Below the pieces are notes generated by a model. That model had not been told where the DNA came from. It searched no databases and was given only the letters and a program-made list of their open reading frames with translations. 21,745 nt of DNA from a virus, in the IMG/VR virus record IMGVR_UViG_3300006305_000046, positions 1 through 21,745 of that record; one strand, 5' to 3'. Positions 5,768 to 21,745 of the stretch are shown in pieces (positions within the stretch are counted from its first letter, which is position 1; every line of letters begins with the position of its first letter). Position numbers and translations under genes: made by a program.

Positions 5768-6150
5768 CGAAGGCGTGTAAGGTATCGTACGGATATGCTT
5801 TGAAACTAATCAATGATTCGGGTACACCAAAAGAAGTTATCATAGCCGAGTCCAAACCCCCTGTCCGCTGTCAGCTACTTGATGAAGCGTCGAGCCTTAC
5901 AGCTACAACTCGTAACAAAGACTATGGTGATGCTGTGGACAACCACGAACATATCGCCCGCATCTATAATGCCATCACAGGACAACGTCTTACAGCAAGA
6001 GACATCACTCTGGTCCACCAGGCGACGAAGTTAGCAAGGCGACAAACAAGTCCGTTGAAAAAAGATCACTACATAGATAACATGGCGTACGTCGGTATCG
6101 AATACGAATGCGCTGTGAAGGAGAAGAATAGTGGACTTAATCACTCTTGA
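5692..6150 (+). CDS. HTH-like N-terminus plus DUF6378-like domain protein
   Basis: This is a 152-residue protein. The ATG at 5692 has AGAGGAGA at 5677-5684. Residues 18-45 (LATPKEVAKACKVSYGYALKLI) look like a helix-turn-helix. Residues about 70-145 fit the phage DUF6378 pattern: R-x-K-x-Y-G, then H-x-x-I-A-R-I-Y, then a helix with K-L-A-R, then D-H-Y-I-D-N-M-A-Y. The function of DUF6378 is not established; its conserved His/Asp/Lys in an all-helical setting is suggestive of nucleotide binding, but that is speculation. It ends 20 bases inside the DNA polymerase gene, so it is likely co-translated with it. Confidence 0.75.
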   Translation: MRKIAKKERVWKYVLKNRLATPKEVAKACKVSYGYALKLINDSGTPKEVIIAESKPPVRCQLLDEASSLTATTRNKDYGDAVDNHEHIARIYNAITGQRLTARDITLVHQATKLARRQTSPLKKDHYIDNMAYVGIEYECAVKEKNSGLNHS

Positions 6151-7936
6151 TTTTGAAACATACTACAACAAAGAGTATTCTTTAAAGAAACTGACAACGG
6201 AAGAATACGTACGCGACCCTAGGTTTGAAGTGCTTGGGGTCGCTATAAAAGTTAATAACAGAATAACGGAGTGGGCAAGTGGTACACAGGAACAACTTAA
6301 GACATTCTTACAGAGGCACGACTGGAACAACGCGATGGTATTGGCTCACAATACTATGTTTGATGGTGCTATCCTCTCTTGGGTATTTGATATTAAACCT
6401 CGTGCTTATACTGATACAGTTTGCATAGCGAGAGCCGTCAACGGAGTTGAGGAGAGCGTATCGTTAAAAGCATTGTCAGAAAAGTATGGCGTGGGTAAGA
6501 AGGGTGACGAGATACAGAACACTCTCGACAAACATAGACAAGACTTTACCGACGAAGAACTAGAACGCTTGGGTGACTATGCTGTCAATGACGTGGACTT
6601 GACATACGACTTGTTTACAATCATGGCGAAGGGGTTCCCAAAGAAAGAACTTAAGCTTATTGACTTGTCACTGCGTATGTTTGTAGAGCCTGTTTTGGAT
6701 CTGGATCTGGACTTGTTAGAAGACCATCTCAGCAACACACGTCAACGTAAGGAAGAACTACTGATGGACGCTCGTGCATCAAAAGAAGATTTGATGAGTA
6801 ACGACAAGTTTGCAAAGTTACTTGCTGCATATGACGTAGAGCCACCTAAGAAGTTAAGCCCCACCACAGGCAAGGAGACATGGGCTTTTGCGAAGTCGGA
6901 CGAAGAGTTCAAACGCCTGTTAACACATCAGGACGAGAGAGTTCAATCACTTGTTGCGGCCAGGTTGGGTAATAAAAGCACACTTGAAGAAACGCGAACG
7001 CAAAGATTCATAGACATAGCAAAACGAGGCACTTTACCCGTGCCTGTTAGATATTACGCGGCTCATACAGGACGTTGGGGCGGTGATGATAAGATAAATT
7101 TACAGAACTTGCCAAGCCGTGGCACGAACGCAAACATGCTAAAGCGTGGCATAATTGCACCACAAGGATACTCTATAATAGATGCGGATTCGGCACAGAT
7201 AGAGGCAAGAGTGTTGGCGTGGCTTGCCGAACAAGACGATTTGACAGAGGCGTTTGCCAAGGGTGAAGATGTTTACAAGAAGATGGCATCAAAAATATAC
7301 GGTGTAGCAGAAAGCGAAATTACGAAAGACCAACGATTTGTTGGTAAAACTACAATTCTAGGCGCAGGGTATGGCATGGGAGCGCAGAAGTTCCAAGACC
7401 AACTTAAGACATTTGGATTTGACATGGAGCTACATGAAGCACGACGTGTCATAAAGATATACAGAGAAACAAACCACAAGATAAATAAACTGTGGCGTGA
7501 CGCTCAGTTGTTCCTAAAAGATGGTAACACGTTTGGTCTGTATGGTGTTTTGTTTGTAGAAGATGGCAAGATACTTCTACCCTCTGGACTACACTTACGC
7601 TATGACGACTTACAGTTTACCACTACAGACAAGGGCGTGGAGTTTGACTACAAAACAAGGCGCGGTCGCACCAGAATATATGGGGGTAAGATAATAGAGA
7701 ATGTATGCCAAGCGATAGCTCGTTGCATTATTGGTGAACAAATGTTACAAATAGCAAAGAGGTACAGAGTTGTCTTGACAGTGCATGACAGTATTGCGTG
7801 TTGTGTCAAAGACGAAGAGGTGGACGAGGCACAGCAATACGTCGAAGAATGTATGCGTCAGCCACCAGAATGGGCAGAGGGTTTACCGATAGATTGTGAG
7901 TCGGGGACAGGAAAATCTTATGGAGAATGTGATTGA
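6131..7936 (+). CDS. Family A DNA polymerase with 3'-5' exonuclease domain
   Basis: The protein has 601 residues with a GTG start at 6131 and AAGGAG at 6118-6123. The N-terminal DnaQ-like exonuclease shows ExoI D7-F-E9, ExoII HNTMFD (73-78) and ExoIII Y150-x3-D154, so proofreading looks intact. The polymerase part has TGRWGG (313-318) and NLQNLPSRG. Motif A is DADSAQIEAR (351-360) and motif B is R402-x3-K406-x3-L410-G-x2-Y414-G. Motif C is H552-D553-S554. No 5' nuclease domain is present, and about 600 residues is normal for T7-like and other phage Pol A enzymes. The residue matching E. coli Pol I Phe762 is Leu410. It should be the replicative polymerase, working with the primase-helicase and SSB-like genes. 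The TGA overlaps the next TTG start. Confidence 0.95.
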   Translation: MDLITLDFETYYNKEYSLKKLTTEEYVRDPRFEVLGVAIKVNNRITEWASGTQEQLKTFLQRHDWNNAMVLAHNTMFDGAILSWVFDIKPRAYTDTVCIARAVNGVEESVSLKALSEKYGVGKKGDEIQNTLDKHRQDFTDEELERLGDYAVNDVDLTYDLFTIMAKGFPKKELKLIDLSLRMFVEPVLDLDLDLLEDHLSNTRQRKEELLMDARASKEDLMSNDKFAKLLAAYDVEPPKKLSPTTGKETWAFAKSDEEFKRLLTHQDERVQSLVAARLGNKSTLEETRTQRFIDIAKRGTLPVPVRYYAAHTGRWGGDDKINLQNLPSRGTNANMLKRGIIAPQGYSIIDADSAQIEARVLAWLAEQDDLTEAFAKGEDVYKKMASKIYGVAESEITKDQRFVGKTTILGAGYGMGAQKFQDQLKTFGFDMELHEARRVIKIYRETNHKINKLWRDAQLFLKDGNTFGLYGVLFVEDGKILLPSGLHLRYDDLQFTTTDKGVEFDYKTRRGRTRIYGGKIIENVCQAIARCIIGEQMLQIAKRYRVVLTVHDSIACCVKDEEVDEAQQYVEECMRQPPEWAEGLPIDCESGTGKSYGECD

Positions 7937-9303: not shown

Positions 9304-10839
9304 ATGCAAATAATAGACAACAAGGCTTTACGCCTACGGCTACGTGACCCTGATAAGGTTATAAACGCCATACCCAAGAGCCGAAAGGTTGGGGATAACG
9401 AAGTTATAGTTAACTGGGGTCTGGAAGAGGCACAGAGCCTGAATCAGCTAGGTATAAAATCACCATCACCCATAGAAGCAAAATACACATGGACAGGAAG
9501 ATACCAACCATTTGACCACCAAATTTCAACCGCATCATTCCTTACCATAAACCAAAAAGGCTTTTGTTTCAACGAACAAGGTACAGGTAAGACCGCAAGT
9601 GCCATATGGGCATCTGATTTCTTGATGAAACAAGGTATAATAAACAGAGTGCTTGTAGTATGCCCGCTCTCGATCATGGATAGCGCATGGCGTGATGACT
9701 TGTTTACATTTGCCACACACCGTACAGTTTCTGTAGCACATGGGTCAGCAGATAAGCGTAGTAAGATAATACAAGAGGGGTCAGATTACGTGGTTATAAA
9801 CTACGATGGTGTAGGTATCGTACTAGATGACCTCAAAAAAGGTGGGTTTGATTTAATTATTATAGATGAAGCCACACATTATAAGAATGTCCAGACGAGG
9901 CGTTGGAAGCTACTACGTCAACTAATACATGATAACACGTGGCTGTGGATGATGACAGGTACACCAGCCGCGCAGAACCCTACAGACGCATATGGTCTGG
10001 CAAAGCTTGTTAGCCCTCATAGAGTACCAAGATTTTTTGGTGCGTTTAAAGATATGGTCATGATAAAGGTATCGCAGTTCACATGGAAGATACGACCAGA
10101 CGCTACAGACATAGTGTATAGAGCGTTGCAACCTGCCATACGTTTTACGAAGGACGAGTGTCTTGATTTACCATCTATGGTGTATACAAAAAGACAGGTG
10201 GAGCTTACAGCGCAACAGAAGAAATACTACAAAGAGTTAAAAACAAAGCTTGTGTTAGATATCACAGGCGAACAAGTAACAGCTATAAACGCGGCTGTAA
10301 CTCTTAACAAGTTACTGCAAATATCAGCAGGGGCAATCTACACAGACGAAGGCGACGTGTTGGAGTTTGACATAAAGAACAGATACAAGGTGCTACGCGA
10401 GGTGATAGATGAGTCTAGTCAAAAGGTTCTTGTATTTGTACCTTTCAAACATGCCATAGATATACTGACAGATAAACTACGTTCGGAAGGTATAGCCACA
10501 GAGGTCATACGTGGAGATGTCCCTGCATACAAGCGCACACAGATATTTAAAAGGTTTCAAGAGGAGACCGACCCAACAGTCCTGGTGATACAACCACAAG
10601 CAGCATCACACGGTGTTACGTTAACACGAGCTAACACAGTGGTGTGGTGGGGGCCAACGAGTTCGTTAGAAACATACGACCAAGCAAACGCACGTGTGCA
10701 TAGGTCAGGACAAACACATAAATGCACAGTCGTGCAACTACAAGGTTCTGATGCAGAAAAGCACGTATACAGACTATTAGATAGAAAAATAAACGTACAC
10801 ACAAAATTTATAGAACTTTACAAAGAAGTACTTGACTAA
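9304..10839 (+). CDS. SNF2-family (SF2) helicase/translocase
   Basis: The protein has 511 residues; the ATG at 9304 follows GAGAAAGAGAA. The motifs appear in order. The Q-region is FDHQISTASFL (70-80) and motif I is EQGTGKTA (91-98). Motif Ia region is VLVVCPLSI, motif II is DEAT (188-191) and motif III is MTGTP (217-221). Motif V is ASHGVTLTRANTVVWW (434-449) and motif VI is QANARVHRSGQ (460-470). The ending R-x-H-R-x-G-Q and TGTP are typical of SNF2-type enzymes. These move on double-stranded DNA and remodel protein-DNA complexes or drive branch migration. Both RecA-like lobes are complete with no extra domain. Its place between nucleases and SSB fits recombination or replication restart. 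Confidence 0.92.
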   Translation: MQIIDNKALRLRLRDPDKVINAIPKSRKVGDNEVIVNWGLEEAQSLNQLGIKSPSPIEAKYTWTGRYQPFDHQISTASFLTINQKGFCFNEQGTGKTASAIWASDFLMKQGIINRVLVVCPLSIMDSAWRDDLFTFATHRTVSVAHGSADKRSKIIQEGSDYVVINYDGVGIVLDDLKKGGFDLIIIDEATHYKNVQTRRWKLLRQLIHDNTWLWMMTGTPAAQNPTDAYGLAKLVSPHRVPRFFGAFKDMVMIKVSQFTWKIRPDATDIVYRALQPAIRFTKDECLDLPSMVYTKRQVELTAQQKKYYKELKTKLVLDITGEQVTAINAAVTLNKLLQISAGAIYTDEGDVLEFDIKNRYKVLREVIDESSQKVLVFVPFKHAIDILTDKLRSEGIATEVIRGDVPAYKRTQIFKRFQEETDPTVLVIQPQAASHGVTLTRANTVVWWGPTSSLETYDQANARVHRSGQTHKCTVVQLQGSDAEKHVYRLLDRKINVHTKFIELYKEVLD

Positions 10840-11539: not shown

Positions 11540-12190
11540 ATGGAACAATATATTATAAAAAACGTAGAGGCTCTATGGCCTAAAATAAACACGACTTATC
11601 ACTTTGATAGTAACGAAGGACGGTCTGTACCGTGTGAGCCTAATGCTCAGAACGCAGAATATTCTATACAGTTTCGTATGGATAACGCTACTGCAAAGGG
11701 ATTGTTTACCGCTATGTCAGAATGTTATCAAGCTAACAAGAAAGACAAGTGGGCAGATAAGTTAGAGAGAACTTTTGTCAAAGACGATGAGGGCATGTTC
11801 ACTCACAAGGCTAACTTGAAAGGCGCATACAAAAACCAAAAAACTCAAAAACCTTTGCAAGTTGATGCCAACAACCACAAGTTACCAGATGAGTTCTTGT
11901 TAACGACGGGCAGTACGGTAAATATAGCTGTACAGTTTGTTCCATATGACATGGGAGGCAAGCAAAACGTGTCGTTACGTTTGAGAGCCGTGCAGGTCAT
12001 AAAGTATGTGCCTATGGAAGAGAGAAATCCTTTTGAGGCAACTGATGGGTTTGTGTTCAATAAGACTGAAGATAACCCTTTCACTGAAGATGCGGTGGCA
12101 GAACCAAAGAAGGTCGTTAAAAAGCCCTCCCCTCCCACCAAGGATGCTGATGACGACTTGAGTTCTATCGTTGACGATTGGGACGATTAA
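11540..12190 (+). CDS. Probable single-stranded DNA-binding protein
   Basis: This is a 216-residue protein; the ATG at 11540 has AAGGAGAG upstream. The beta-rich core (about 1-160) includes an aromatic-rich start (ALWPKINTTYHF), SIQFRMDNATAKGLF and STVNIAVQFVPYDMG then SLRLRAVQVI, compatible with an OB fold. The C-terminus (about 175-216) is Pro/Lys then strongly acidic, ending SSIVDDWDD. An acidic tail with a buried aromatic is the classic feature of phage and bacterial SSBs (for example T7 gp2.5) used to bind polymerase and helicase. Context between HTH and primase-helicase genes fits. Family membership is inferred from architecture, not a diagnostic motif. Confidence 0.72.
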   Translation: MEQYIIKNVEALWPKINTTYHFDSNEGRSVPCEPNAQNAEYSIQFRMDNATAKGLFTAMSECYQANKKDKWADKLERTFVKDDEGMFTHKANLKGAYKNQKTQKPLQVDANNHKLPDEFLLTTGSTVNIAVQFVPYDMGGKQNVSLRLRAVQVIKYVPMEERNPFEATDGFVFNKTEDNPFTEDAVAEPKKVVKKPSPPTKDADDDLSSIVDDWDD

Positions 12191-12197
12191 TAGAACT

Positions 12198-12261
12198 ACA
12201 CCACGACTAGGCTTTTGCCGAAAGGATAACGTGCCGTATCTTGTCGTGGTGTCTTCGGCAC
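12198..12261 (+). ncRNA. Structured, possibly pseudoknotted RNA element before the primase-helicase gene
   Basis: Four pairings can be read. P1: ACACCACGAC (12198-12207) with GTCGTGGTGT (12243-12252), 10 perfect pairs. P2: GGC-TTTT-GCC (12210-12219). P3: AGGATA (12223-12228) with TATCTT (12237-12242), six pairs including one G-U, leaving an eight-base loop. The P3 loop GTGCCG (12231-12236) can pair with CGGCAC (12256-12261) downstream of P1, giving a pseudoknot. A competing pairing joins TGCCGAA (12216-12222) with TTCGGCA (12254-12260). The 3' arm touches the ribosome binding site AAGGTGGGA (12262-12270) of the gene at 12274, so the element could control translation. No T tract follows. I do not recognise a known riboswitch or ribozyme. 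The linker after P1 is only three bases, so all helices may not form together. Confidence 0.5.
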
Positions 12262-12273
12262 AAGGTGGGAAAA

Positions 12274-15015
12274 ATGGAAACAAAAAAATTTTTAGAGAGA
12301 GTTTTAGGTGATGGATATTATTCTGTACTAGGTCTTGGTGACAAGAAAGTACAGAGCTTCCATGCAACTATAGATGATGTAATAAGCAGGGCTAACGAGT
12401 TAGATGCTGAAGGTATAAACGCATACTTTGGATTAGCCACTTTTACAACAAGTAATGATCGAAAAGTAACAAACGTAAAGAGTCTGAGTTCTTTTTACTT
12501 AGACTTGGATTGTGGTGTTGGTAAAGAGTACCCTGACCAGAATACAGCTTTTCATGATTTAAAAAGGTTTATCAAAGAGACAGGTCTACCTCGCCCGATG
12601 TTAATTAATTCTGGGTATGGTATACACGTATACTGGGTGCTTACAGAGAGTGTATCCTATGGTGAGTGGCTACCCGTGGCCCAGGGACTGAAGGATATGT
12701 GTATACAGCATAACTTGTCAGCAGACAATGGTGTAACTGCCGATGCTGCGCGGGTACTTAGAGTTCCTGGCACACGTAACCACAAACGTGGCACACAGAA
12801 ACCTGTCATGTTCTTTGGTACAGGTGAGTTTCGTGACGTGGAGTTTGATGAGTTTGCACGATTGATTGGTAAAGAGGGGGTGACTGTACCTACCAAAGTG
12901 GACAACGAAGAGAGTGCGTTTAAGAAAGCTATAATAGAAAACTCAGAGTTTGGTTTTAAAAACATACTGACCAAGACCATGAAAGGTGGAGGATGCGAAC
13001 AGTTAAAAAATATAATGGAGAACCAACAAGATATAAGCGAACCGTTGTGGAGAGCAGGGCTGTCTATCGCAAAGTTCTGTAATGATGCAGACAAAGCCGT
13101 GCATAAGATGTCTGAGAGACACCCAGAGTACAGCAAACACTTAACAGATGAGAAGGTGGAACTTATAAAAGGTCCTTATACGTGTGCTAAGTTTGCAGAA
13201 GAAGACCCAGAGCCATGCTCGACTTGTTCGCATTGGGACAAGATAACTTCTCCAATATCTCTAGGTAAGAGTATAAAGAAAGCACCTGCGTCAAAAGACA
13301 TACCTCTATATCCAGAGCCGTACTTTCGGGGGGCGAATGGTGGCGTGTATATGCGTTTTAAAGATAAAGAGGGTAATACAGAAGATAAGATGATATACCA
13401 GAATGACTTGTATGTTACTAAGCGTATTCGTGACGAGGACACAGGTGAAGCTGTCGTCATGCGATTACACTTGCCGCAAGATGGTATTAGAGAGTTTACA
13501 GTTCCTCTAACTTCTGTAACATCTAGGGAAGAACTTAGAAAACAACTAGCTATGGAAGGTATAGCTGTGTTGGGTATGGAGGATATAATGAAGTATACAA
13601 CGACATGGATAACACAACTGCAAGCAAAGACGACAGCTGACATGGCTCGCACACAGTTTGGTTGGTCAGATGAAGAGCTTGGAGGTTTTGTTCTTGGTAA
13701 GGAAGAGATACGTAAAGATGACGTGCGGTCTAACCCTCCATCAGTGCAAACAGCAGGATTAATGAAAGCATTTGAACCCAAAGGCACGTTAGAGGAGTGG
13801 AAGAACTTAGCTAACTTTTATAACCGTGACGGGTTTGAACTGCATCAGTTTGTGGTTGGCACGTCATTTGGTTCGCCTCTCATGTCTCTTTTACCAATAA
13901 ACTGTGCAGGATTACACCTAAATGGTGGGTCAGGAGTTGGTAAGACTACAGCTATGAACACAGCTTTGTCTGTATGGGGTAATCACGCTGACTTGTTAAT
14001 ATTTGAAAAGGATACGCACAACTCTATGATGAACAGAGGGGAGCTGTATCACAGTCTACCATTATATATGGACGAACTTACGAACGCTTCGGCTAGAGAA
14101 TTGTCTGACCTTGTGTATCAGCTTACAAGCGGTAAACAAAGAAACAGAATGTCTCAAGGTGGAAACGTAGAACGAAAGCGGGGTAAGCCTTGGAAACTCA
14201 TAGCAGTCACAAGCGCAAACCGTAGTCTAATAGAAAAAATAAGCACAGCCAAAGCCATGCCAAAAGCTGAAGCGCAGAGACTTATGGAGATACGTGTCCC
14301 AGATATGAAGTTTGGTTCGAAAGAAGAAACAGACAAGTTTAACTTACAGCTACAACGTAACCACGGTCATGCAGGTAGGATATACATAAAATATGTTATC
14401 AACCACTTGGAAGAAGTACAGAAGCTCCTACAAAAAGTACAAGTCAGAGTAGACACTCAAGCAGGATTAAAAGCGGAGAATAGATTTTGGTCTGCTCTGG
14501 TAGCGGCTAGTATGACAGGCGTTATATTAGCAAATCGTTTGGGGCTTGTGGATTATGATCCAAAGAAAGTGTTTAAGTGGGCGATAGATCGTTTGAAAGA
14601 GAGCAAGAACGAAGTATCAGACATGAGTGTATCTGTAGAAGAAACACTTAATGATTACATACACGAACATTGGAGTAACGTATTATGGATAAAAAGCACT
14701 GACGACCTGCGTAAGCAAGAAGATGGTGTCACTAATATTGTTATACCTGAAGCATTACCAAGAGGTAAATTGGTTGCACGTTATGAAACTGATCTGAAAC
14801 GTGCTTATCTTATACCAAAGCCCTTGAAGGCATGGTGCGGACAACAGCAGATAGATTATACATCTTTTATGCAGGATCTTAGAACCAAGCTAGGTGCAAC
14901 AAACACTACTATGCGTCTAAGTAAAGGCACACACATGAACCTGCCTGTAACGAGAGTTATAGCTGTAGATTGCTCTATAGAGAATGAGAATAAGACAAGG
15001 CATATTGAAGTCTGA
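12274..15015 (+). CDS. Primase-polymerase/helicase fusion (AEP-like primase plus P-loop ATPase)
   Basis: The ATG at 12274 gives 913 residues with AAGGTGGGA at 12262-12270; the in-frame TTG at 12241 lies inside the structured element and is rejected. The N-terminal part is primase-polymerase-like: YLDLD with D77 and D79, SGYGIHVYW (113-121, H118), and R163-V-P-G-T-R-N-H-K (163-171). A cysteine cluster C304, C315-x2-C318 then SPISLG is probably a zinc site. The helicase part (about 350-750) has Walker A GGSGVGKTT (551-559), Walker B LYMDE (597-601) and a sensor-like VTSAN (645-649), similar to DUF927-type phage ATPases. It should unwind DNA and make primers for the family A polymerase. The far C-terminus (after about 800) is unassigned. 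Confidence 0.88.
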   Translation: METKKFLERVLGDGYYSVLGLGDKKVQSFHATIDDVISRANELDAEGINAYFGLATFTTSNDRKVTNVKSLSSFYLDLDCGVGKEYPDQNTAFHDLKRFIKETGLPRPMLINSGYGIHVYWVLTESVSYGEWLPVAQGLKDMCIQHNLSADNGVTADAARVLRVPGTRNHKRGTQKPVMFFGTGEFRDVEFDEFARLIGKEGVTVPTKVDNEESAFKKAIIENSEFGFKNILTKTMKGGGCEQLKNIMENQQDISEPLWRAGLSIAKFCNDADKAVHKMSERHPEYSKHLTDEKVELIKGPYTCAKFAEEDPEPCSTCSHWDKITSPISLGKSIKKAPASKDIPLYPEPYFRGANGGVYMRFKDKEGNTEDKMIYQNDLYVTKRIRDEDTGEAVVMRLHLPQDGIREFTVPLTSVTSREELRKQLAMEGIAVLGMEDIMKYTTTWITQLQAKTTADMARTQFGWSDEELGGFVLGKEEIRKDDVRSNPPSVQTAGLMKAFEPKGTLEEWKNLANFYNRDGFELHQFVVGTSFGSPLMSLLPINCAGLHLNGGSGVGKTTAMNTALSVWGNHADLLIFEKDTHNSMMNRGELYHSLPLYMDELTNASARELSDLVYQLTSGKQRNRMSQGGNVERKRGKPWKLIAVTSANRSLIEKISTAKAMPKAEAQRLMEIRVPDMKFGSKEETDKFNLQLQRNHGHAGRIYIKYVINHLEEVQKLLQKVQVRVDTQAGLKAENRFWSALVAASMTGVILANRLGLVDYDPKKVFKWAIDRLKESKNEVSDMSVSVEETLNDYIHEHWSNVLWIKSTDDLRKQEDGVTNIVIPEALPRGKLVARYETDLKRAYLIPKPLKAWCGQQQIDYTSFMQDLRTKLGATNTTMRLSKGTHMNLPVTRVIAVDCSIENENKTRHIEV

Positions 15016-15262: not shown

Positions 15263-15291
15263 GTGACCATCTTCGGGTGGTCACTCTTTTT
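15263..15291 (+). terminator. Rho-independent terminator with C(UUCG)G tetraloop
   Basis: GTGACCATC (15263-15271) pairs with GGTGGTCAC (15276-15284), nine pairs with one G-U, closed by the very stable C(UUCG)G tetraloop. TCTTTTT (15285-15291) follows. It should end the whole + strand transcription block. The T tract overlaps the stop codon (15290-15292) of the convergent minus-strand gene, so the two blocks meet with no spare sequence. On the minus strand the flank is purine-rich, so termination there would be poor. Confidence 0.8.
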
Positions 15292-18200
15292 ACCCAAAAA
15301 ATCTATAGTCTTTGTCGTACTCGCTCTCATTCATCAATAAGAGCATTCTGTTTGCTGAAGATATGTTTATACCATTATTCATACGTATATCTTTAGATGT
15401 CTCTCTATGTCGTTTCATAGATCTCATTATGTCCTCACCTGTTATGGTGGATAGAGGGTGTCGTTTGTTGTGAGCTATCAACTCTTTATATGCTTCCTCG
15501 TACAATTCTAAATTACCTTGACGCATGCTTACATAAAGTTTCTTTGTTAGTTGTGTCTTCTTTCGGTTTATAGATGTGTCTATGCCTTTTTTGATATTGT
15601 TCTTTTCCATTTGCCGTGTGTACTCTACGGGAGGAAACCCTGCGAACTGACCAAGTAGGTCTCCGAAAGTAGGATCTCCGTATATGGCATCACCTCTACG
15701 TGTAAGATAACCCTCTCTGGTTATTCTACCAAACGGACCTGCTTTCCATGCGTTAGCCAATGCGGCAGGTAAAGCATTTTCTACGCCTCTTTCGAAGTTA
15801 CCTTCTTTAAAATCGTTGGTAGCTCGTAATAGTCTGTCAACTGTGCTTAACGCAGGACCTCCCAGATAGAACAGCAAGTTCTCTTCGAATGAAGCGTCTT
15901 TGTTATAACGGTTTTCTTGTATTAGTAGTCCTGTAAGACGAGTTCTGGATGCTATATCCATACCTGTTATAAGGTTTACAGCTCCTTTGTACCACTCTTC
16001 TCCTACTGTTTTTCTTACGATGGTGTCTGCATCGTCTTCTTCATCATCTAAAAACAAGTCCCATATCATAGTTATAGCCCCATACAAAGGAAGACCTTGT
16101 ATACCTGCAAAGAACAATGCGCTTAAATGTATACCTGCCAACTGTTTTAAAGCCACTATCCTGTCAGGGTCAGTTAAATCTTTATCTCTTCTTATAAGCT
16201 CACGTACGGACTGTATCATGGTGGTGTACATGCGTATTCCATAACTTTTGTACATCATGGCGACACGACCAATATTCTGCTGTGCTATACGTGGAGCCGT
16301 CTCTAACACCGTACCTCCGTTAGTTTCTTGTGTTTTACGAAGTGCCAGCTCTACAGCATCTTGCACTTGCTTGTCAGTAGCTGCATCGGCTAGCTTACTG
16401 AAAGAGTACTCACCCTCTTTAAACATAGTGTTATTTGGGTCTACAGACTTTCTGAGGGCTAACTCATAAGAAGCTAGAAGCGTTGCTTGACGGTTAGCAC
16501 GTTCCGCAAAGTTAAACATGGCTGCAGAAAATCCTGCCACCTTATCTATCATGTTGTAGTCCCCTCGCGTATCTCGTCCTGTCTCTCCTAGTCCTAGGGC
16601 ATCTAGTATCCAAGACCGCGTGAGCTGCCCTCTTTCATCTGCCTCTTTTATGAGAGGGGCAAACGCCTTCATTTTTAACTTCTCTCCTTCACGAAGCTGC
16701 CTGTTACCTATCTTATCTCTAACGGTGTACTCTCCGTCTTTGATGTCGTAGTAAGATGTTATATCAACTTTACCGTTACCAACAATCTTCGCGGCTTCCA
16801 TTATCGTGCCGTATGTCCTACCATACCCATACTCTGCACCGAAATAGGGGTACACAAACAAGGGTATCTGAGACAAGTTAACAAGTGCCGACGATATGTT
16901 AAAACCAATGGTGTAAAGAAACGCTGTCTGGTTTGCTGTTTTTGCTATTTTCTCTACCCCTTTGTAATCAGGGCCTTGCCTCGCAAACTTAGATCTTTTT
17001 AGAAGGTCGTCACCTATTCTCTTTACACTTGGATAGCCTATACCTAAGTCTCTTAGGAAAGAATTACTTTGATAAGCCTTCTCGTCTTTGGACTTTTTTA
17101 TAACTGCACGTATGTCGTTCTCTATATTTCTAAGCTCTCTACCTTTTTCTAACTGCACAACCTGACGAGCAAGACTAAAACCTTTATCTTTAAATGCTGC
17201 AAAAGAGTCAGGGTCAAAACCTACAACACCTTTTCTGGCGGTGAGTGATTTAGCAAATGATGTTTCTGGTAACGTGTTTATATACAGTTTTACAATTTCG
17301 TCTTTTACAGCTTTCTTTTCTTCTGCGGGTAGTTTGCCTTCGTTTATGGCTGTGAGTATATCCCCTACAAACCCAGTCGGTGGTGAGTTAACAAAGTCAG
17401 AAGTGGCATCTTGTTGGCTGTATACACGCACAGAGTTCGCAACCACCGTATCATCCGCGTCTAGCTTTCGGGCAAGATTATCAGCAGCGGTTTGCGTTTT
17501 TGTTAGAAGTGTAACTCTTGGATCACCGTCTTTTTCTGGGTCTTTAACTTCATATGTTACTACGTAGTCTCCTTCACGTATGAGAGGAAAATACACATCT
17601 AAATTTCTTGGGTTAAATATTTTAGCAAGTGGGCCTTTCTTCATATTCTCAACCTGCTTTGCGTCCATTGAACGCCTTAGTTCTGTTTCTATTGACTTCT
17701 TTAGTTTATCATATTCTTTTTTATAATACTCACGCATATCCTTGTACGCCTGTTTACCTGCAGGACTTAACTTTCTCCACACTTTTTGATTCTGCTCCCA
17801 CTTCTCTCTTAGGTTATTACCGCCTTCTTTATCAAATTTATCTTGCCCTTTTAATTTGCCTGACTGATAAATGTAATCACTTCTTTTCTTCAACGGGTCT
17901 ACTTGATATATAGTAGCCCCATACTTCAGGCTGTATATTACGTCATCAAGCACAGCTTTGTCTGAATTAGGGTCTGTCATGTAAGGTTTTAGTTTTTGCA
18001 CAACTTCGTCAAACTCTTGCCCTGCTCGTTCCAAACCACCTCTTTGTTTCTGCACAAGTATGTTTAGTTTATTGCCCAGACCGTTAAACCCTGCTCTGTC
18101 TGCTATGGTGGTTGCTGTTAACAGGTCATTTACCCCCATAAACAAGTCTTTTGCAAAATTAGTTACCCCTCCTCTAGCTAGAGTTTCAACAGCACGGTCT

Positions 18201-21200
18201 ATAAACGTATCTTGTTCCTGATTGTTCATAAACTTTTTACGTTTCTGAGGACCGTTTAAGAAAGAATTAAAACTTTTTTTCATGTCTGATGGACTCATAA
18301 AGTACGTACCTGCATCACGATACTTTGGCGCAGGAGCTAGTAAACTGTCTATAATATCACTTGTTATAGAGAGAGCATCTATGTCTACCCTGGGCTGCTT
18401 GGTTAAACGTCTCCACAGATTACCAAAGAAATTTCTAATCCTTTGCATGGCTGTTATCTTTTCCCCTCGTATATTTATACGACTTAGTTCCTGTTGGAAA
18501 AGATGATTACTTAATATTTCAGATACAAACTCGTCTACATTCTTTGTGCCATATGCTGTGCCTAACCTGTCTTTTACTTGGTCAAATATAGTTTTTATCT
18601 GATTAGCAAACGCACTTGACGGGTTGGCTAGCTCTGCAGAAGCCAAGGCGTGTCCCATCTCGTGTAATAACACGTGAGGTGTCATACCAGATTCTGCGTC
18701 TAATTTTATAGTGTTAGTCTTAGGGTCAAACAACCCTGCTGCTTTTCTTCTACCAACTTTTAAATTCTTTACGATAACAACTTCAGTTGTGCCTACTAAG
18801 TCAGCAAACTTGTTAGCAACTTGGGCTACTATTCTGTTATCAGTATCTAAGGCTAATACTTTTAAGGCTTCAAATAGTCTATTGTTAGCTAAATGATCTA
18901 CAGCTATGGTAGATAATGAATATTCAAGGTCCATAACAGCCTTTATTGGCAGTAAGAGTTCCTCCCCTTTTCTAGCGTCCACCTCTTTTCTTATTAGCAT
19001 GCCGTTCTCACGAGCATATTTCATAGCTATAGCTACGGCTTCTTCAGATGTTAACGTTGTTTTCTTTTTTCTCTGTTTTAAAAAACGCTCCTCTTTCTTA
19101 CGTTCAACAGCTTTAGCCCCAAACTTCTCCAACTCCTTTCTTTTCTTAATTGTTTCTGCTTCTGCTGACCCTCTACCCGTGCCTTCATATTCTGCTTTAT
19201 ATCTGAAGTAGTACAAGTCTTTTGCCACATCTTTTAGATCGTTTTTGGTGTAGGCTGGTTTTGTTAAGCTAGTGGTTGTTAACAAGTCAAGTGATGGTCT
19301 AGTATCAGAAAAAGTTGGTACAAGATTAAGTGTGTTTTCTAAATATTTTTTTGCTTCCTGAACCGACTTCTTCCAAGCTTTTTGTCTTCTTTCTTCAGCA
19401 CCTACAGGGTCAACTCCAGGTGCGTAGCGGTCATACCTTTTCATGTCAAGATAGGACATGCCTAAAAGGTCAGCTAAATCTTTTCTGATCGTTTCTTTTT
19501 CTTTTTTAGTAAACTGCCTTTGTTTGTCTGTAATAGGTATTATTCTATTTTGCTTTATGCTGTAAAAACCAAGGTCTCCTACTAGGTCTTCATCAAACCG
19601 CTTTCCTGTTGTGGGGTCCACCACTTGCTTCTTAAAAAGTTTTTCATCTTTTTTACTCTGTTCTCTGTCTTTCTCGGCTTCTTTTTCAACTTCTACAGGC
19701 TTTGCTGTTCTAACTATGTTTTGTTGTGCTTTAGTGCCTATGGGTTTGTCTTTACTGTAAAACTCTACTCTGTTGTTAAACCAAGCCTTTCCTTCTGGGG
19801 ACAAGTTATTATCTACCCAAACCGCTACTCTTAACGCAGCTTCCTGCCCTGTATTATCTAAGAAATACGCATCCTTTGCTTTTGGGGTAGAAGGCCCAAT
19901 CTTTTTTCTCATCCCCTTATAGTAGACTCCTCCAACATCTTGTTCTTTGCCGTAGATAAATATTTTTTCCCCTGCTTCTTCTCTTTCCACTAACTTTTGT
20001 ATGTAAGTGTCAAAATCTCCGTCTACGGCAGGATTAAATGGAGCTACATCAGGATTTATTATTGCTCTTGGTTTTGCTTTAAACTTTTTTATCTCTTTAG
20101 TTTTAGCTTTTTCTATGGCTTTCAGTTTTTGTAAAGATGTAGCATTGTCAGGTATTTCCGCTTCTCTTTCAGGAAACCGCATCTGATAAGCTGCTTCATC
20201 TAAAGCGTTTTCTATACTAGGGTCTTTACTAAGAGTTTGAGCCACAAGAAAATCCATATTAGGGTAATCTGCGTCTAGATCTTCTTTAGGATCTCCTTCA
20301 AACTTTCCTCTTTCTCGTGGAGGTTTTGACTCTATCAAAGCTATTATCTTGTTTTTATCTTGCAAGGGTAGATCGTCCATATCTAACGAAGAAGTTCTTT
20401 TTGAAAGATTAAACTGTTCTAAATCTCTAGGTTTTTGCCCTGCCTCAAGGTAATATTTTGTCTCTAGATTCTTCTTGTATACAGACTCTGCTTTTTCATT
20501 TGCCTCTTTCGTCTCTTTAGGTTGAAACCCTCTTAAAAACTTAGGAGGTATCTTAACAACATCTTTACCTGCTTTTTCAGATAATTTATCTCTAGCATCT
20601 CCTATTGTCATACCGTCAGAAACGGGTATTTTATTACTTTCAAGTATTGACTCTGTTTCAGGATCAATCTTTTCCGATAGGTTGGCATAGTATTGGTCAG
20701 GAGTCTGATCTACACGGTTCACTCTTTTTAAGAAAATTTCACCTGCTGGAGTTATATTTAAAAACTCTCTATCACCTCTACCAAGCCGATCTAGCCCCTC
20801 TTTTTCTCGTTCTTTTACTTTCTTTATAGCCTCGACTAACTCACCTCCGTACTCCTCATCTAGTGCAGCAGCAGCCTCATCTATATTAGCAGCTTCAATG
20901 TCTTTTGGCACTCCTGTAACATCTGGTCCCATTCTTGACCTAGGAAACCCTTTTTCTTGTAAAACGCTTTGTTGTTGTTTTATTTCTAAAGCGTCCATAT
21001 CAGCATCAGGGTCTTGTATACCTGCTTTAAAGTCTTCTGTTAGTGTAGCGTCTTTCTTTCTTTTTCTTGTAATATCATCTGTAGCAAGTTTTCCAGAAGG
21101 ACCCACTCTAGTGCGTCCAGTTTTCTTAGATTTGGAGGGATCAACACGTCTTCCTGTTTCTCGTTCGCCTCGTAAATTAGCTTCAGTGCCTTCTCCACTT

Positions 21201-21745
21201 CCGTCGTCGTCAGTCTTTGTAACATCTGCTTTAGCTCCTCTTCTAGGTGCAATCATTTCTACGATAGTTTGCACAAACCCACCAACACCTGCACCGTACC
21301 CAAAGGCTTCTCCAGACCCCTCAAATGTGCCTTGTTCTGGGTTGTATACACCACGTTCAATTAAGTTTTGTCCTATCGCAGCTGCATATTCCTGCAGACC
21401 CTCAACACCTGCTTCCTGTAGTATACGTCCTCCCTTATCGTATATGTCGTCAGCAGCAGTCTTACCCAAGCCACCTCTTAACTTGTTAAGTATTCTTGTA
21501 GGAGATATAAGCTCTGATAGCCCTACTCCTGCCCCCAGCACAGCGGCTTTTGTTCTTTCACCCTCTGTGGCTTCTGATTCTCTGGCTCGCTCACTGGCTT
21601 CACCTGCACCCGCTGTAACCGCTAGACCTGCCGCTGCAAGGGGGTTTATTGCGGCTGTACCAAGAATGCCACCAAAAGATCCTAGGGCTTCTGCAAACTT
21701 ACGTGGTACAGCTGATGCCCCATACCCTATATTTGCATCAGGAGC
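15290..21745 (-). CDS. Giant polyvalent/internal virion-type protein with zincin motif (N-terminus outside window)
   Basis: The frame is open from the right edge to TAA at 15290-15292, at least 2,151 codons. A GTG at 21541 is a possible but unnecessary start, since 68 open, Ala/Gly-rich codons precede it. The visible N-terminal part is Gly/Ala-rich and hydrophobic, then comes a long Lys/Glu/Asp-rich, probably disordered or coiled-coil region. A zincin motif HEMGH lies at 18664-18650, in the context TPHVLLHEMGHALASAEL. The C-terminal third has large helical stretches, hydrophobic segments (ALVNLSQIPLFVYPYFG; LSALFFAGIQGLPLYGAITM) and FNFAERANRQATLLASYELA. Such regions are typical of LPD38-type large polyvalent or internal virion proteins of tailed phages, thought to be packaged and injected. 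A virion role and peptidase activity are inferred. Confidence 0.82.
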   Translation of the reverse strand, partial: APDANIGYGASAVPRKFAEALGSFGGILGTAAINPLAAAGLAVTAGAGEASERARESEATEGERTKAAVLGAGVGLSELISPTRILNKLRGGLGKTAADDIYDKGGRILQEAGVEGLQEYAAAIGQNLIERGVYNPEQGTFEGSGEAFGYGAGVGGFVQTIVEMIAPRRGAKADVTKTDDDGSGEGTEANLRGERETGRRVDPSKSKKTGRTRVGPSGKLATDDITRKRKKDATLTEDFKAGIQDPDADMDALEIKQQQSVLQEKGFPRSRMGPDVTGVPKDIEAANIDEAAAALDEEYGGELVEAIKKVKEREKEGLDRLGRGDREFLNITPAGEIFLKRVNRVDQTPDQYYANLSEKIDPETESILESNKIPVSDGMTIGDARDKLSEKAGKDVVKIPPKFLRGFQPKETKEANEKAESVYKKNLETKYYLEAGQKPRDLEQFNLSKRTSSLDMDDLPLQDKNKIIALIESKPPRERGKFEGDPKEDLDADYPNMDFLVAQTLSKDPSIENALDEAAYQMRFPEREAEIPDNATSLQKLKAIEKAKTKEIKKFKAKPRAIINPDVAPFNPAVDGDFDTYIQKLVEREEAGEKIFIYGKEQDVGGVYYKGMRKKIGPSTPKAKDAYFLDNTGQEAALRVAVWVDNNLSPEGKAWFNNRVEFYSKDKPIGTKAQQNIVRTAKPVEVEKEAEKDREQSKKDEKLFKKQVVDPTTGKRFDEDLVGDLGFYSIKQNRIIPITDKQRQFTKKEKETIRKDLADLLGMSYLDMKRYDRYAPGVDPVGAEERRQKAWKKSVQEAKKYLENTLNLVPTFSDTRPSLDLLTTTSLTKPAYTKNDLKDVAKDLYYFRYKAEYEGTGRGSAEAETIKKRKELEKFGAKAVERKKEERFLKQRKKKTTLTSEEAVAIAMKYARENGMLIRKEVDARKGEELLLPIKAVMDLEYSLSTIAVDHLANNRLFEALKVLALDTDNRIVAQVANKFADLVGTTEVVIVKNLKVGRRKAAGLFDPKTNTIKLDAESGMTPHVLLHEMGHALASAELANPSSAFANQIKTIFDQVKDRLGTAYGTKNVDEFVSEILSNHLFQQELSRINIRGEKITAMQRIRNFFGNLWRRLTKQPRVDIDALSITSDIIDSLLAPAPKYRDAGTYFMSPSDMKKSFNSFLNGPQKRKKFMNNQEQDTFIDRAVETLARGGVTNFAKDLFMGVNDLLTATTIADRAGFNGLGNKLNILVQKQRGGLERAGQEFDEVVQKLKPYMTDPNSDKAVLDDVIYSLKYGATIYQVDPLKKRSDYIYQSGKLKGQDKFDKEGGNNLREKWEQNQKVWRKLSPAGKQAYKDMREYYKKEYDKLKKSIETELRRSMDAKQVENMKKGPLAKIFNPRNLDVYFPLIREGDYVVTYEVKDPEKDGDPRVTLLTKTQTAADNLARKLDADDTVVANSVRVYSQQDATSDFVNSPPTGFVGDILTAINEGKLPAEEKKAVKDEIVKLYINTLPETSFAKSLTARKGVVGFDPDSFAAFKDKGFSLARQVVQLEKGRELRNIENDIRAVIKKSKDEKAYQSNSFLRDLGIGYPSVKRIGDDLLKRSKFARQGPDYKGVEKIAKTANQTAFLYTIGFNISSALVNLSQIPLFVYPYFGAEYGYGRTYGTIMEAAKIVGNGKVDITSYYDIKDGEYTVRDKIGNRQLREGEKLKMKAFAPLIKEADERGQLTRSWILDALGLGETGRDTRGDYNMIDKVAGFSAAMFNFAERANRQATLLASYELALRKSVDPNNTMFKEGEYSFSKLADAATDKQVQDAVELALRKTQETNGGTVLETAPRIAQQNIGRVAMMYKSYGIRMYTTMIQSVRELIRRDKDLTDPDRIVALKQLAGIHLSALFFAGIQGLPLYGAITMIWDLFLDDEEDDADTIVRKTVGEEWYKGAVNLITGMDIASRTRLTGLLIQENRYNKDASFEENLLFYLGGPALSTVDRLLRATNDFKEGNFERGVENALPAALANAWKAGPFGRITREGYLTRRGDAIYGDPTFGDLLGQFAGFPPVEYTRQMEKNNIKKGIDTSINRKKTQLTKKLYVSMRQGNLELYEEAYKELIAHNKRHPLSTITGEDIMRSMKRHRETSKDIRMNNGINISSANRMLLLMNESEYDKDYRFFG

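Follow-up and report, generated by a model that had tools for sequence, protein, structure and literature searches.

Comparative computational analysis shows that a conserved RNA, folded into a three-way junction with a pseudoknot, lies between the single-stranded DNA (ssDNA)-binding protein gene (ssb) and the primase gene of a marine phage, and that it belongs to the int-alpA class (Rfam RF02996). The reading that we hold, with moderate confidence, is that of a divergent int-alpA RNA that sits between two genes and works in cis as a leader for translation of the second. The source DNA is IMGVR_UViG_3300006305_000046, positions 1 to 21,745 (IMG/VR), and the window denotes all 21,745 nt. The upstream gene (11540–12190, plus strand; stop codon TAA at 12188–12190) encodes a Gp2.5/Enc34-like ssDNA-binding protein (Pfam PF10991, 2.5e-7; phrog_112, 2.1e-19) and the downstream gene (12274–15015, plus strand; ATG at 12274) a DUF927 primase-helicase (PF06048, 2.5e-34; phrog_25314 and phrog_8841). 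The element begins 7 nt 3′ of the ssb stop codon and extends to the ribosome-binding site (RBS) of the primase gene. An SNF2-type helicase (9304–10839) and a family A DNA polymerase (6131–7936) are encoded in the same replication block, and a protein of 2083 aa that contains a large polyvalent protein domain (LPD39, PF18858) is encoded on the minus strand (15290–21541), convergent with the replication genes; in Rhizobium phage RHph_TM27A, a very large minus-strand gene is likewise located downstream of the primase gene.

All parts of the element are on the plus strand. Helix P1 is formed by ACACCACGAC (12198–12207) and GTCGTGGTGT (12243–12252), supported by the sequence itself and by compensatory changes. 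It is followed by J1/2, a UA (12208–12209) conserved in alignments A1, A4 and A5 as part of CUAG, and by the P2 hairpin GGC-UUUU-GCC (12210–12219; GGC at 12210–12212, GCC at 12217–12219), which is predicted by folding and paired in 98.6% of the cells of A4. The conserved J2/3, GAA(A) (12220–12222; CGAAAAG in int-alpA), leads into P3, folded from AGGATA (12223–12228) and TATCTT (12237–12242), the outer pairs of which co-vary in A4. The loop of P3 (L3) contains the 5′ strand of the pseudoknot, GTGCCG (12231–12236), which pairs with CGGCAC (12256–12261) across a pyrimidine linker (12253–12255); the linker is mostly 5 nt in phages, measured from the end of an 8-bp P1, and mostly 6–9 nt in bacteria. 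The RBS, AAGGTGGG (12262–12269), is located immediately 3′ of the pseudoknot, and Shine-Dalgarno (SD)-like GGGTG(G) recurs 5′ of the start codon in many homologues. The nested fold is the minimum-free-energy structure (−26.3 kcal/mol), but its energy is only modestly better than that of shuffled sequences (z about −2 to −2.3), so that the comparative data are decisive for the fold. The motif series CUA...GAAA...GUC had also prompted consideration of a hammerhead ribozyme, which was rejected because co-variation identifies the GAC/GUC part of P1 as paired.

Relatives were collected by primase searches of IMG/VR down to about 46–50% amino acid identity, and 342 loci displaying the primase start yielded 149 distinct upstream regions. 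Automatic parsing placed 102 of them in the junction type and left 47 as a remainder, a few being misfiled in either list (5 with odd parses were excluded; in the remainder, L053, L425 and L432 resemble junction types). Across these loci, the P1 pair CACCACGAC/GTCGTGGTG is replaced by CACTGCGGC/GCCGCAGTG, CACTATGGC/GCCATAGTG, CACCGTGGC/GCCACGGTG and others, with complementarity always kept. In a 37-sequence alignment from which the window's clade was left out, 96.9% of the cells are paired, and 81 cells display double changes; shuffling gave 24, and sliding the partners gave no more than 19. When P1 was mapped onto the primase tree, 32 pairing-keeping double changes were inferred compared with 2.0 in mispaired columns, and 5 breaks (mismatches) compared with 66.6; P1 was located through complementarity, which introduces some bias toward structure, a bias shared by the mispaired-column control. 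Arms mutated without compensation, named in the first-pass annotation as one observation that would speak against the element, are rare by this count. Among the P1 and P2 pairs, G-U occurs 34 times and A-C twice, indicating that the conserved molecule is the plus-strand RNA. A blastn search with the element against annotated phages returned chance matches only, and most matches of a permissive motif scan were false, though 8 were true and distant.

The pseudoknot strands change jointly, with GTGCCG/CGGCAC, GTGTCA/TGACAC (L015), TACCGA/TCGGT, TGCCGA/TCGGCA and CCACA/TGTGG all occurring among the phages. Here and below, the permutation tests used one representative per L3 type and ignored phylogeny. 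For 41 phage representatives, L3 and tail score 11.05 with their own partners and 9.73 (sd 0.34) with permuted ones (p = 2e-4). The pseudoknot also co-varies in bacterial int-alpA RNAs (p = 5e-5; CCTTCA/TGAAGG, CCCTG/CAGGG, ACTTCA/TGAAGT and ACCTAC/GTAGGT) and in a third, viral set, consisting of the 61 of 121 pattern-found places with a P1 of at least 6 bp (p = 5e-5; CGCCGCA/TGCGGCG, TCCGCCT/AGGCGGA and CCCTCCA/TGGAGGG). Some clades (L405, L414 and L428) have a tight tetraloop closing L3 and no pseudoknot. The 10-bp helix, the 2 hairpins inside it and the loop-tail pairing abutting the RBS had been proposed from the window alone; each is present where it was placed, P2 and P3 show compensatory changes as P1 does, and the comparative evidence as a whole bears out a conserved, pseudoknotted RNA beside the primase RBS. 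The mutually exclusive pairing proposed alongside them, TGCCGAA (12216–12222) with TTCGGCA (12254–12260), fared differently: the letters are complementary in the window, but a conserved switch found no support, with p = 0.58 for own against permuted partners in the phage set and p = 0.08 in the 20 sequences without the L3 pseudoknot. Complementarity of the conserved CYGAA with UCGG is found in many sequences, with no sign of selection as a pair.

The view that the element belongs to no known family proved wrong at one remove. A search of Rfam gave no int-alpA match for the window itself even at E ≤ 10, but 4 of the 18 loci with orthologous phage elements subjected to the threshold test exceed the RF02996 gathering score of 35.8 bits (L433, 41.8; L123, 40.5; L453, 37.4; L157, 36.8). 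Since the window has no Rfam match of its own, its membership rests on these relatives and on 2 covariance models, the E-values of which are rough owing to shortened calibration. Model R1, built, as had been suggested in the first-pass annotation, from homologous phage loci, here only from those outside the window's clade, recovered the window's element (12200–12267; 44.8 bits, E = 1e-10) as the single match. It also matched 44 of 62 bacterial int-alpA loci at the RNA and nowhere else, which is not a free recall rate, as 60 of the 62 had been picked with an int-alpA-consensus pattern; the bacterial sources are E. coli, Klebsiella phage P12620-1 and 60 genome contigs, mostly of beta- and gammaproteobacteria. 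Model R2, built from bacterial int-alpA alone, matched 30 of 61 phage loci, every time at this element, and, with filters off, gave its best score within the window to 12200–12270 (16.7 bits, E = 0.005).

The int-alpA consensus gcCgcGcCUAGccC..GggCGAAAAGCGGG..CCCGCCUGgCgcGgc describes the three-way junction seen in the phages, P1-UA-P2-GAAAA-P3-CU-P1′, where CUAG, CGAAAAG and CCUG are conserved. In the R1 alignment, the window has the 3 helices with CUAG and CGAAA, and it shares with int-alpA the loop-tail pseudoknot, found here in the bacterial copies and co-varying in all 3 sets, and the intercistronic position adjoining an RBS. It differs in the shorter J2/3, a weak and A/U-rich P3, the lack of CCUG and a pseudoknot strand, CGGCAC, unlike the AAGG/AGGG-like strand of int-alpA. 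Furthermore, the window copy lies below Rfam detection, and its setting is a marine phage operon of ssb and primase genes, not the 3′ side of an integrase or HTH gene; the integrase and alpA flanking genes are not its context. In the literature searched, int-alpA is named only in a genomic listing and RF02996 in no article; the pseudoknot may already appear in the original description, reportedly that of Weinberg et al. 2017.

Placement between genes is a recurrent feature of the family. In phages, the end of P1 (taken as 8 bp) is separated from the start codon by 17–34 nt (median 23, interquartile range 23–26). In bacteria, the upstream stop codon is mostly 6–24 nt before P1 and the start codon, with its SD, about 28–40 nt after it, the RBS being just 3′ of the pseudoknot. 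The Rfam type of int-alpA, "Gene; sRNA," would point to a small RNA acting in trans, a reading to which we give almost no credence: the element always lies between 2 genes of the same direction, at a fixed distance from each, the 3′ strand of its pseudoknot adjoins the RBS, and a search for a promoter-like or terminator-like site belonging to the window element found none. Two other candidates for this gap were rejected, namely, stop-codon readthrough into the primase (an in-frame TAG directly follows the TAA in the window) and an intrinsic terminator (P1 is not followed by a U-run, and no terminator was found at the site).

The neighboring genes, by contrast with the placement, are variable. 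Those upstream include integrase, HTH regulator and SSB genes; those downstream code for, among others, primases, KilA-N, Rha and HNH proteins, many proteins of no known family, a helicase-domain protein and a glycosyltransferase, so that a regulator specific to SSB or primase is unlikely. Translational control is still our best guess. If the analogy to gene 32 of T4 drawn in the first-pass annotation is taken to mean that the phage SSB binds the pseudoknot and represses the primase or its own operon, it appears quite improbable. The position directly between the SSB and primase genes speaks for such an operator, and gp32 of T4 and RB69 does recognize an H-type pseudoknot 5′ of an RBS among phage replication genes, together with UUAAA repeats (PMC535899). 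However, that operator precedes gene 32 itself rather than the next gene, whereas the window has a three-way junction after an SSB gene of the Gp2.5/Enc34 type, not gp32, and the stretch from the pseudoknot to the start codon (12262–12274) contains no extended, unstructured UUAAA tract. The same RNA, moreover, precedes many unrelated genes and follows integrase, HTH or other genes with no SSB adjacent. Nor do the downstream genes have a metabolic theme, which, with the loss of the junction in sister clades, makes a metabolite riboswitch very improbable, even though the UA, GAAAA and CU residues that would form its ligand pocket are strongly conserved in phages and bacteria.

In 5 other viral contigs (L613, L633, L587, L534 and L582), the element precedes KilA-N, Rha, helicase-domain and glycosyltransferase genes; in L613, it follows a gene that by eye resembles a capsid type. 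Model R1 found at most 1 place in each of 10 large viral records, apart from an overlapping weak match on the opposite strand. Of 185 genomes sampled from the class to which G015, the genome with the Marinobacter locus L480, belongs, 22 contain RF02996. PADLOC assigned no defence family to the proteins encoded downstream of the bacterial copies.

The full junction is not universal among the relatives. Nearly all 47 regions of the remainder have a simple hairpin at the equivalent place, and in L050, L058, L061, L297, L306, L419 and L452, a plain long hairpin replaces the junction between ssb and primase genes; the relatives that keep only a simple P1 hairpin (L050, L061, L297, L419 and L452) suggest that some lineages can do without the complete fold. 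In Pseudomonas phage Rollin and Rhizobium phage RHph_TM27A, model R1 did not find the element at the primase homologue, and at the Rollin locus the simple hairpin was not seen either.

The constancy of the junction core, pseudoknot and stop-to-RBS position, set against neighboring proteins that are not constant, points to a generic cis-acting mRNA device rather than to an operator dedicated to a single protein; the device probably helps to set the level of the downstream protein. The mechanism that we infer, including the action on translation, its sign and its trigger, would be as follows. Within the bicistronic ssb-primase mRNA, the element, with P1, P2 and P3 connected through UA, GAA(A) and a short strand of pyrimidines, is closed by the pseudoknot of the P3 loop with the tail just 3′ of P1 and would most likely serve as a translational leader in cis. 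In the folded state, the pseudoknot might stack on the SD and hinder ribosome loading; relief could come if P1 were melted, for instance by a bound factor or by ribosomes that terminate at the stop codon of ssb.

Pairings that involve the SD bear on this mechanism. The 5′ flank and the SD are paired in several phage clades, and sequence changes support this pairing (CACCAAGACC/GGTTTTGGTG and CACCATA/TATGGTG; p = 0.0075); in one group of phages, L069, L258, L263, L423 and their relatives, an extra outer helix joins the primase SD to the bases that follow the ssb stop codon. In bacteria, L3 is complementary both to the SD and to the pseudoknot strand, and L3 and SD co-vary (p = 3.5e-4), which is not the case in phages (p = 0.66); in the window's clade, no strong pairing covers the SD. 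Many bacterial tails hold 2 SD-like copies, such as TGAAGGGCGCTTGAAGG, and the bacterial L3-SD complementarity may partly reflect this repeat. Among L462–L521, the 2 copies (such as TGAAGGGCGC TTGAAGGAGCGC) are often 3′ of P1, and L3 can pair with either, an arrangement of the tails that suggests a decoy or switch. Together, the 5′-flank pairing in phages and the L3-SD co-variation in bacteria favor regulation of translation initiation, which may be coupled to termination at the stop codon of the preceding gene.

The main rival to translational control is an mRNA-stability or processing element, in which the junction and pseudoknot would act as an exonuclease barrier or block nuclease entry and so set the relative amounts of ssb and primase mRNA instead of acting on initiation; we regard this as rather unlikely, and the SSB operator discussed above as less likely still. 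The topology, a three-way junction with an L3-to-downstream-strand pseudoknot, is that of the xrRNAs of mosquito-borne flaviviruses, which also stop bacterial RNase J1 (PMC5760640), and a barrier of this kind would fit both the variable neighbor genes and the persistence of simple-hairpin variants at the equivalent site. The comparison concerns topology alone, with no homology claimed: the conserved junction residues differ, and exonuclease resistance and the ring around the 5′ end are features of xrRNAs. In addition, a stability element has no need of tight coupling to the start codon, and E. coli-like gammaproteobacteria carry int-alpA but, to our knowledge, lack RNase J.

A wider reading, which we offer tentatively, is that int-alpA is one case of a widespread "junction-pseudoknot leader" of phages and satellites, a portable intercistronic gate before the next RBS rather than an integrase-alpA small RNA, with the P3 loop as a partner-switching anti-SD or barrier strand, used by lytic marine phages on primase. 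Known by its consensus only and filed as a bacterial small RNA, int-alpA is found here to be common in phages and satellites and to have a strongly co-varying pseudoknot (which may be already described) adjoined by the RBS of the next gene. Its "function unknown" can be replaced by a concrete hypothesis, testable by reporter fusions in E. coli, and the element offers a structural starting point for asking how phages keep SSB and primase synthesis in balance. In an integrated element of E. coli (L458:7993–8058) and in Klebsiella phage P12620-1 (L459:7980–8047), the RNA is located immediately 3′ of an integrase-like gene and immediately 5′ of an unannotated one, and the E. coli element also carries a DUF927 gene, an ssb pseudogene, 2 C4 antisense RNAs and isrK-like RNAs.
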